From Brevibacillus sp. (GTDB lineage Bacteria > Bacillota > Bacilli > Brevibacillales > Brevibacillaceae): 64,000 nt of DNA. Under the pieces are notes generated by a model that did not search any database, was not told where the DNA came from, and was given only the letters and a program-made list of their open reading frames with translations. A program made the translations under genes and the position numbers. The stretch spans positions 868,001 to 932,000 of the forward strand of contig JACDOF010000001.1 of the NCBI GenBank assembly GCA_017656235.1, written 5' to 3'. Position 1 is the stretch's first letter, and each line of letters begins with the position of its first letter. Positions 10,681 through 40,053 of the stretch are shown here, piece after piece.

Positions 10681-12342
10681 CTAGGCGGTTTCAATCCCAT
10701 CTGCCGCTTGCAGTCCGAAATGAGCGATGGCCTGTTCCCGCAGCTTGAACTTTTGAATCTTGCCGGAAGCTGTCATCGGGTATTCGCTGACAAACTGAAC
10801 GTAGTGCGGAATCTTGAAGCGAGCGATTTTCCCCTCACAGTACTGTTTCACTTCCTCCTCGGTCAGGGTCTCTCCGTCGCGTACCTTGATACAGGCCAAT
10901 ACCTGCTCTCCGTACTTGGGATCTGGCACACCAACGACCTGCACATCCAGGATTTTGGGATGGGTGTAGAGGAATTCCTCGATTTCTCGCGGGTAGATGT
11001 TTTCGCCGCCACGGATTATCATGTCCTTCAAGCGGCCGGTGATGCGGTAGTAGCCTTCTTCATCCACCGTAGCCAAATCACCGGTGTGCAGCCAGCCGTC
11101 GCTGTCAATTGCGCTTTGCGTTGCCTCCGGCATGTTGTAGTACCCTTTCATGACCAAATATCCGCGCGTGCACAATTCGCCCTGTACACCCGGTCCCACC
11201 TCTTCACCCGTAACGGGATCGACGATTTTTACCTCGACGCCATCATGAGCCCGGCCAACCGTTGAAACCCTGCGCTCAATACTGTCTTCCGGTCTGGTCT
11301 GGGTTATCACAGGCGAGGCTTCGGTCTGCCCATAGGCGATGGTGATGTCGCGAATGCCCATTTGCTCAACCACTCGCTTCATTACTTCAATCGGACATGG
11401 AGAGCCGGCCATAATGCCCGTACGCAGCGAGGACAAGTCGCGCCGCGGGAAGCTGGGATGGTTCAGCTCGGCAATAAACATCGTCGGTACCCCGTAAAGC
11501 GCGGTGCAGCGCTCTTCTTCCACTACTGTCAACACCTTCTCCGGGTCAAATGTTATCAACGGCACCATCGTCGCACCTGTTGCCACACACGCAAGCGTCC
11601 CCATTACGCAGCCAAAGCAGTGAAAAAACGGAACTGGTATGCAGAGGCGATCCCCTTGGTGCAATCCCATCGCTTCGGCAACCTTGATCGCGTTGTTGAC
11701 GATATTGACGTGAGAGAGCATGACCCCTTTTGGAAAGCCGGTGGTGCCAGAAGTGTACTGCATGTTGATCACGTCGTCAGGCTGAAGCGACCGCTGACGG
11801 TTGGCCAGTTCTTCATCCGAGACGGAGGCTGCCCGCTCCAGGAGATCGGACCAAAGAAACATGCCCGGCTGCGGCTCGCTCCCAATGAAAATGACGTTGC
11901 GAAGTTTAGGCAGCCGCTTCGATTGAAGCTGTCCCGGTTGACACGCATCCAGTTCGGGGCAGATCTCCCTGATCATTTCCAGGTAGTTCGCATCCCGGTA
12001 GGAGTCGATCAGGATCAGAGTGCTTGATTCGGACTGACGCAGCAAATACTCCAATTCATGGACGCGGTAACTGGTGTTGACAGTGACCAGGACTCCTCCC
12101 ATCTTGGCTGAAGCAAACTGGGCGGTTACCCACTCCGGAACATTGGTGGCCCAGATGGCGATGTGCTCCCCTGCCCTTATGCCCAGTGACATCAACCCTT
12201 TCGCCACCTGATTGCACAAATTGCGAAACTGGGCAAAGGTATACCGCAGCCCGAGCTCCTGGTACACCACCGCTTCCTGATCAGGAATCCGTTCGGCGGT
12301 CTCGTCCAGCAAGTCACCGATGGTAATCGTGCGAATGGTCAT
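10681..12342 (-). CDS. AMP-forming acyl-CoA synthetase (AMP-binding family)
   Basis: 553 residues of the adenylate-forming family that activates fatty or other carboxylic acids to acyl-CoA. The P-loop-like motif [11 protein letters not shown], the adenine motif YGQTEASPV, the hinge [16 protein letters not shown], and the C-terminal catalytic Lys in MTASGKIQK are all intact. The arrangement resembles B. subtilis YngI and other medium/long-chain acyl-CoA ligases; the substrate is not evident. GAGGTGAGCGCGAG precedes the ATG. It stands alone: 600 bases of non-coding DNA lie upstream and a small ORF downstream. Confidence 0.93.
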
Positions 12343-12432
12343 CTCGCGCTCACCTCGTATGATAATTCGTATGATTCATATATTTTTGTCATTTTATTCG
12401 ATAAAACGCTTTCACTTTCCTGCTGAACGAAA

Positions 12433-12452
12433 GCGTCCCGCAAACGGGACGC
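12433..12452 (-). terminator. Hairpin, possible terminator for leftward transcripts
   Basis: GCGTCCCG-CAAA-CGGGACGC, an 8-bp stem with a 4-base loop; reading leftward it is followed by TTTCGTT. It could end a transcript that covers the inverted-repeat region 12475-12902. Confidence 0.45.
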
Positions 12453-12474
12453 CCTATCGTGTAGAGAAAGGGTG

Positions 12475-12655
12475 CCATTTTCCTCTTCACTCCATTGCCA
12501 ACCCCCAAGGGAGCCGGACTGTCCGCGTCGCTCTCCCGAAGCGGGCTGGCGCAAAAGCAGCGCTGCTCCGCTGTTTGTCCAGGTTGTGCCCGTAGGCCTC
12601 CGCTTCGGTCGTGCTCCGCTTGGAAGGTTGGCAAAGTCGTTCGTGTGGAAAATGG
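12475..12655. repeat. Nested inverted repeat, element 1 (structured RNA or MITE-like)
   Basis: Three stems nest in order with nearly equal side distances. Outer: CCATTTTCC (12475-12483) with GGAAAATGG (12647-12655). Middle: TTGCCAACC (12495-12503) with GGTTGGCAA (12626-12634). Inner: CCAAGGGAGC (12505-12514) with GCTCCGCTTGG (12613-12623, one bulge). The result is a ~180-base imperfect hairpin. No convincing gene lies here; the long open frames lack ribosome sites and family sequence. I recognise no known RNA family. Confidence 0.6.
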
Positions 12656-12761
12656 CCGCTCTCCTGTCCAAACTCGCTTTGCATTTAATCTGAAGGATGT
12701 CAAGCGTATCTTGGGGTGAGCAGGGACAGCGAGTGGGCGGTTTTTCGCCAGCGAACGGGTT

Positions 12762-12902
12762 TGGCCAACCTGCCAGCGAAACGGCGTATTCGCAGGGAAA
12801 TCGCAGCGGCAACAGCTTCGCGTCGCTGCGGGACATCGTTTTGCCGCTGCCCCTGCGGATCGACGTGAAGCGATCCTGGATTGCTTCTTTGCTGGTTGGC
12901 CA
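12762..12902. repeat. Nested inverted repeat, element 2
   Basis: Outer stem TGGCCAACC (12762-12770) with GGTTGGCCA (12894-12902); middle CGCAGGG (12791-12797) with CCCTGCG (12851-12857); inner GCAGCGGCAA (12803-12812) with TTGCCGCTGC (12841-12850). The outer arm differs from the middle arm of element 1 by one base (TGGCCAACC against TTGCCAACC). With element 1 it fills most of the 600-bp gap 12343-12942, which has no supported gene. Confidence 0.55.
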
Positions 12903-12942
12903 CCTTACGTGAGCGCGAAAAACGCCTTTGCCGCAAGAACGA

Positions 12943-13416
12943 CTAATCGACTTGGATGATCTTAACCGCTTCCACTTTATAGGGAAGATGATTGCTGTAG
13001 TTCAGTTCCACGCGGATTTCGTGTTCGCCTTCGGGAAGCTGCTTGATTTTGAACTCCGGTCCGTACAGCATCTGCCAAAATTTCCCATCCAGATAGAGAT
13101 GGGCGTGTCCCTCTCCATGCGCTGGCTGCGGGCTCTCGCTGCTGTCGCTGCCAACGAAGCGGAAGTTTTGTGTCAACATCTTTACATGTGCCTCATTTCC
13201 GTTCACATCCACATCCAGTGTCAGCGTGGGTTTGGGCGACCCGTACAACTCAGCGCCGGCCGATGCGGGTACAGCCTCTGAATCAGCATCCCATTGATAG
13301 GATTGCGAGACATCCAGCGGATCGCTCAACAGCAGCACAATTCCGGTGATCAACACCAGCAGAAAAATGGCTCCGCCGATGATTAGGTTGCGAAGGCTGA
13401 TTACAATCACTCTCAT
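12943..13416 (-). CDS. Membrane-anchored protein of unknown function
   Basis: 157 residues. Residues ~8-30 form one hydrophobic helix (LIIGGAIFLLVLITGIVLLL), so the rest is probably outside the membrane. The outer domain looks beta-rich and carries HAHLYLDGKFWQMLYGP followed by LPEGEHEIRVELNYSNH. This pattern resembles small extracytoplasmic domains in which a dressed beta strand ends in a GEHEI-type turn. I do not assign a function. The nested inverted repeats lie directly after its stop; yajQ lies 85 bp upstream and may share a transcript. Confidence 0.75.
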   Translation of the reverse strand: MRVIVISLRNLIIGGAIFLLVLITGIVLLLSDPLDVSQSYQWDADSEAVPASAGAELYGSPKPTLTLDVDVNGNEAHVKMLTQNFRFVGSDSSESPQPAHGEGHAHLYLDGKFWQMLYGPEFKIKQLPEGEHEIRVELNYSNHLPYKVEAVKIIQVD

Positions 13417-39888: not shown

Positions 39889-40019
39889 CCATACCTACAC
39901 AAAAGATGCCGGTCCCCTTTCGGAATGACCCGATCATCCGGATTTCCTTCTGTCTCGGTCCTTACAGGCTCAGAGCAGATTGTTCATTTTTCAAAAAAAA
40001 TGCATAAAGGCAGGAGTGC

Positions 40020-40053
40020 TGTTCATCACTGATACAGCCTCATGAACATCAGT
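40020..40053. repeat. Two overlapping inverted repeats after birA
   Basis: TGTTCAT (40020-40026) pairs with ATGAACA (40042-40048), and ACTGAT (40028-40033) with ATCAGT (40048-40053). The pairings interlock, so RNA could form one of two hairpins. It lies 13 bases after the birA stop. Not a known biotin operator. Confidence 0.35.

Follow-up and report, generated by a model that had tools for sequence, protein, structure and literature searches.

What fills the large, strongly folded gap between two genes of a Brevibacillus strain, a structured RNA or mobile DNA? The gap (600 bp, positions 12343-12942 of the window, by which we mean the whole 64-kb stretch of DNA analysed here) separates two leftward ORFs. 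Downstream of it lies an AMP-binding (acyl-CoA synthetase-like) gene at 10681-12342 (minus strand), assigned from the ORF list and Pfam, and upstream of it in the direction of transcription there is a 157-aa ORF at 12943-13416 (minus strand) without a Pfam match. A 165-aa reverse ORF (12339-12836), for which no Pfam match was found either, crosses the folded gap.

Architecture of the folded gap

An earlier note on this DNA had described two nested and ordered inverted repeats in the gap, and they are indeed there. The arms TTGCCAACC/GGTTGGCAA and TGGCCAACC/GGTTGGCCA are present in ordered nesting, and the repeat listing pairs 12525-12544 with 12600-12619 at 75% and 12762-12773 with 12891-12902 at 92%. 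Folding of 12430-12910 on both strands, as that note had proposed, gave z = -5.72 for the plus strand and z = -4.92 for the minus strand, and on each strand 0 of 100 shuffles were as good. The nesting stood, but the extents given to the two elements (12475-12655 and 12762-12902) proved too short. Unit A, made of nested inverted repeats around a conserved core (12474-12669), occupies 12454-12693 on the plus strand (∼240 bp). It begins with a degenerate left terminal inverted repeat, CTATCGTGTAGAGAAAG (12454-12470, plus strand), which matches the ends of two insertion sequences described below at only 13 of 17 positions (IS-1) and 12 of 17 (IS-2), and it finishes with a degenerate right terminal repeat, CTTTGCATTTAATCTGA (12677-12693, plus strand), recognised by sequence comparison. 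A linker (12694-12722, plus strand) joins A to unit B (12723-12926, plus strand; ∼205 bp), which also consists of nested inverted repeats and has neither a right terminal repeat nor a right target hairpin. Read by eye, units A and B have a common layout with a third type, named C (L096, L097, and L100), and this is why the two arm sets of the window element are alike. The degenerate left end is directly preceded by an intrinsic-terminator-like hairpin, GCGTCCCGCAAACGGGACGC (12433-12452), recognised from the sequence and from homologous hairpins in two congeners, G001 (where it is single) and G002 (where it is duplicated).

Copies and distribution of the repeat family

When the 600-bp gap was used as query, 58 matches were found in the own genome of the strain, that of the window included. 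Besides the window, 15 of the 58 span the query from ∼120-132 to 584 (12474-12926 in the window), and the remainder are parts of that stretch. The search for copies suggested in the earlier note was thus productive: once the loci were fetched, at least 61 places could be counted in this genome, the window's included, of which 26 contain A and B, 20 only A, and 15 only B. This count, which takes pieces longer than 60 bp, joins those less than 300 bp apart and would count twice a copy split over two contigs, is a lower bound because only 40 of 101 candidates for A and 40 of 108 for B were scored. The arrangement A-linker-B is frequent in the own genome, and one locus (L021:2001-2956, on contig C10 of G000) holds the composite element as a tandem A-B-A-B array.

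Among the 29 genomes searched, the own one included, matches were confined to the own genome and the congeners G001 and G002; the other 26 had none. The matches in G001 and G002 concern the A part, with 69-79% identity, and unit B was not found in either of them by DNA similarity. A search for the A core as a DNA pattern retrieved 0 stretches from a genome contig collection that may omit near genomes.

Structured RNA or mobile DNA

The strong fold on both strands and the conservation of the A core across three genomes would also be expected of a multicopy functional RNA, regulatory or small, that is not a transposable element, and a structured RNA transcribed leftward was one of the two readings offered in the earlier note. 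The covariation that it had proposed to look for gave a divided answer. In an alignment of 49 near-full-length A copies, from which the window copy was excluded and in which some row ends were set by hand, 96.2% of the pair cells were kept and 11 of 37 pairs showed compensatory change; this concerned 75 cells, where shuffles averaged 18.0 and 0 of 500 reached that value, and slid versions were far worse. However, in the number of further pair types unit A did not stand out from shuffles (276 of 500 reached its number), and most of the compensatory changes distinguish the three genomes from one another and therefore amount to few events. Moreover, a palindromic DNA element would give the same compensatory signal. 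Unit B had hardly any compensatory pairs (2 of 54), too weak a result to be used as evidence. No Rfam 15 family matched the folded gap (12343-12942) at gathering score; elsewhere in the 64-kb window there is a single Rfam match above that score, a pan motif (RF01749) at 39946-40041 on the minus strand with 57.9 bits. Furthermore, the dispersed copies, their terminal repeats and target duplications, and the existence of an IS with the same ends, which are described in the following sections, all argue against a functional RNA, and we consider it improbable. The hairpin at 12433-12452, which the note had taken as the possible end of that RNA, is best read as the host terminator for leftward transcription from gene 12943-13416 and as the surviving left copy of an insertion target; as mentioned, G001 and G002 have homologous hairpins at the orthologous place.

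Hairpin duplications at the element ends

Unit A measures ∼265 bp in G001 and G002 and has 17-bp ends there, TCAGnnTGnnGACAAAG. The end pattern CAGnnTGnnGACAAAG was found at 33, 33, and 31 sites in G000, G001, and G002, respectively, compared with 1, 2, and 2 sites for the reversed pattern. Ends were paired when their mismatches summed to no more than 4 and their spacing was 235-680 or 1490-1560 bp; with identical elements taken once, this yielded 51 elements, 40 MITE-sized and 11 IS-sized. The end-paired copies are mostly of 250-615 bp, the MITEs being gene-less. The better-kept ones sit between two copies of one hairpin of 20-31 bp, usually terminator-like, which differs from locus to locus and is the same on both sides within a locus. 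In fact, a flanking direct repeat with a score of at least 12 was present in 28 of the 51 elements (22 MITE-sized and 6 IS-sized) as opposed to 1 of 2550 mismatched flank pairs. Most of these 28 duplications fold: 24 of them reach -4 kcal/mol or lower, and 23 have a better fold than 95% of the shuffles of the same letters. Under a strict definition, in which the duplication abuts both ends within 2 nt, 21 of the 51 elements retain one, of 20-31 bp, and in 20 of these 21 it corresponds to one hairpin with no more than 2 unpaired nt on each side. The 23 elements of the 51 that lie outside the 28 show no clear duplication, which for some of them would reflect an accidental pairing of ends or the age of the copy.

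Type C elements (L096, L097, and L100) have the same kind of hairpin duplication. The composite A+B also moves as a unit, for example in L011, where 615 bp are found inside a hairpin duplication of 26-27 bp. At another locus (L131:1737-2274, in G002), two different MITEs adjoin with a hairpin between them that is found again after the second MITE. The family shows target duplication, and the window copy, which lacks its right end, does not. To judge from its sequence features, a short, transposase-less, many-copy family with shared terminal repeats and duplications is a family of MITEs. The second reading of the earlier note, a pair of MITE-like elements, is accordingly borne out by the many copies, by the terminal repeats and duplications of the better-kept ones, and by the autonomous partner that is present in a congener.

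Partner IS1182-family elements in G001

G001 contains IS of 1539 and 1547 bp (∼1.54 kb) whose ends are the same as those of the MITEs. The transposase of these partners matches the IS1182 model NF033551 with 478.5 bits (cut-off 270) and the Pfam domains DUF772 and DDE_Tnp_1_6, and the two types, IS-1 and IS-2, share 69% amino-acid identity. The IS1202 group, suspected first from the long duplications, was discarded, as among six NCBIfam models only IS1182 was matched above cut-off. The 17-bp ends of four better-kept MITEs agree with those of the two IS types at 14-17 of 17 positions; between IS-2 and the MITE of L075, 16 of 17 positions agree on each side.

Hairpin duplications flank five of ten G001 IS copies (L109, L114, L117, L120, and L122), and two more copies with such a duplication were found at L248 and L249. 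L107, L112, and both IS of L118 have no duplication of their own, and the copy at L110:1975-3513 has a shifted repeat only, its flanking hairpins having a common stem and unlike loops. No pair of ends was found at L251, and L250 represents the L120 locus a second time. At L109:301-1743 and L114:361-1806 (both minus strand), the transposase frame crosses the terminal repeat and the last bases of the IS provide its TGA stop codon. L118:612-8031 carries two IS-2 copies with an IS-3 copy between them, and its outer flanks, left of the first and right of the second, match with a score of 26. These flanks are the sole high pair among the 2550 mismatched ones, which therefore looks like a two-IS compound unit rather than noise, possibly a compound transposon of ∼7.4 kb inside one hairpin duplication. 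IS-3 itself (L242-L246; five copies of 1780-1782 bp with ends GAGGGTGTCCC) is a different IS1182-family IS in which target duplication was seen in 0 of 5 copies; its other ends and its lack of duplications suggest that hairpin duplication belongs to a subgroup of IS1182.

In the own draft genome there are 0 IS1182-family transposases above cut-off, with 3 weak matches, and the partner model has 0 hits; G002 has fragments only. Hence, either mobilisation is not current in this strain or the IS has been lost or was left unassembled, and the MITEs of the draft genome look orphaned. This absence would be in line with MITEs that are passengers of an unrelated transposase and share their ends with the IS1182-type IS by coincidence. 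We find such a coincidence very improbable, however, given how closely the ends of MITEs and IS agree, that both make the same unusual hairpin duplication, and that IS-3, in the same genome as the partners and with other ends, makes none.

The orthologous place in the congeners

The place orthologous to the gap contains in G001 one homologous hairpin and no element. In G002 it contains a MITE in the opposite orientation, located between two copies of GGCGTTCCCCGCCGGGAACGCC, a hairpin duplication of 22 bp. This opposite orientation points to two independent insertions into the same terminator, one of the window copy and one of the G002 MITE, and a later inversion is a possible alternative. That the flanking hairpins are not target duplications and instead are the element's own terminator at both ends, or belong to a site-specific integrating element, is hardly credible: they do lie exactly at both ends of the elements, but they vary by locus yet match from left to right within each (28 of 51 against 1 of 2550), and in G001 a single one stands where there is no element.

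Related IS in other genera

Related IS were also inspected in other genera, where 36 of 70 loci were hand-picked, before inspection of their flanks, for a long match with flank on both sides; some of the 34 left out also had usable flanks. A direct repeat of 18-33 bp was found at the ends of 24 of the 36 (22 exact and 2 with one mismatch), all 24 repeats being hairpins with at most 2 dangling nt, and the other 12 had no repeat longer than 13 bp. The 24 IS with a duplication come from 16 genomes, although 7 of them are from a single one, Lachnospiraceae GAM79; the other hosts are Bacillus, Cytobacillus, Ureibacillus, Priestia, Peribacillus, Vagococcus, Gemmiger, and uncultured Clostridia and Bacilli. 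Over both sets, the duplication measures 18-33 bp, and in 44 of 45 cases (20 of 21 in the genus and 24 of 24 elsewhere) it ends no more than 2 nt from the stem foot.

A terminator-style A/T run accompanies 39 of the 48 hairpin duplications, namely 18 of 24 within the genus and 21 of 24 outside it; at random positions the figure was 548 of 2400, in a loose test whose control positions were not restricted to intergenic DNA. The orientation of the genes around these 48 duplications, based on a crude ORF call, was codirectional in 24, convergent in 15, and divergent in 9, near the naive 2:1:1, and it is therefore uninformative as support for terminator targeting. That the relatives also duplicate hairpins suggests that the transposase picks its target by shape and not by sequence.

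Proposed mechanism and comparison with known systems

The window element is thus very probably a decayed and truncated MITE of a hairpin-targeting IS1182-type subgroup, inserted in the terminator of gene 12943-13416. This reading comes from sequence comparison, namely from the family and its ends, the partner IS of the congener, the hairpin duplications, and an orthologous place that is empty in one congener and apparently occupied separately in the other. We propose that the transposase would recognise a stem-loop, usually an intrinsic terminator, that the element would be joined at, or within ∼2 nt of, the stem foot, and that gap repair would leave the entire hairpin on each side of the element. 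Cutting could be guided by the folded target, either as a cruciform or single-stranded, and the MITEs would be mobilised in trans by the partner IS. In the window, the target would have been the terminator of gene 12943-13416, one copy of which (12433-12452) would have been kept beside the left end, whereas the right end and the second hairpin were probably lost later. The duplicated terminator may keep the insertion harmless.

We are also mildly inclined to a broader view, that a widespread branch of IS1182-type DDE transposases makes duplications whose length is set by target shape, and that terminator hairpins of 18-33 bp are copied whole because an extruded stem-loop is joined at its 5' feet, which would provide the MITEs with a safe haven. 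If this is true, a terminator would remain on each flank and non-coding MITEs could settle at gene ends by the dozen without causing read-through or destroying genes. The exact hairpin duplication, of variable length and ending at the stem foot, is evidence at the sequence level that the cut is guided by structure, and the G001 IS copies represent an apparently intact system in which such a cut could be tested. Furthermore, hairpin-targeting MITEs explain a class of large, folded intergenic repeats that could pass for new RNAs.

Several known systems share some of these properties. Group IIC introns insert beside intrinsic terminators, as the present elements do, but they are retroelements with a ribozyme and a reverse transcriptase and are not known to make a target duplication. 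The IS1202 group is similar in its unusually long target duplications, of 16-28 bp, and its description reports that no target was found for the long-duplication group (PMC10132070); it differs in its transposase, from which the present one was set apart by the NCBIfam profile match. The MITEs derived from ISMac2 in Methanosarcina acetivorans (160 and 169 bp, with 14 and 7 copies; PMC3852290, Table 4) are, like ours, short derivatives of an IS1182-family IS, with terminal repeats of 25-26 bp. However, their duplications are given as 4 and 0 bp, and the accessible sections of that article mention no terminator targeting (PMC3852290).

Another close system is IS1272 / TnSha1 of staphylococci, which also belongs to the IS1182 family by its transposase and is directed to stem-loops, often terminators, with no primary sequence consensus (PMC4923244, PMC5678879). 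IS1272, in contrast to the present elements, which carry the whole hairpin on both sides, loses it: the target hairpin is reported to be deleted or replaced and duplication to be absent (PMC4923244, PMC5678879). Joining at the 5' feet, which would duplicate the whole stem-loop, is given there as a possible pathway only (pathway b; PMC5678879), and duplications of 18-33 bp that end at the stem foot fit this pathway. The same article states that Siguier et al. 2015 refer to some IS1182 members as having palindromic targets but give no detailed data (PMC5678879). In the available portions of the literature on IS1182-type elements and MITEs, no observed duplication of a whole terminator is described, although ISfinder or Siguier et al. 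2015 may list long direct repeats. As far as these sources extend, hairpin targeting by IS1272 and IS1182-derived MITEs in Methanosarcina were already known, and what the present elements add is the observed duplication of the whole hairpin.
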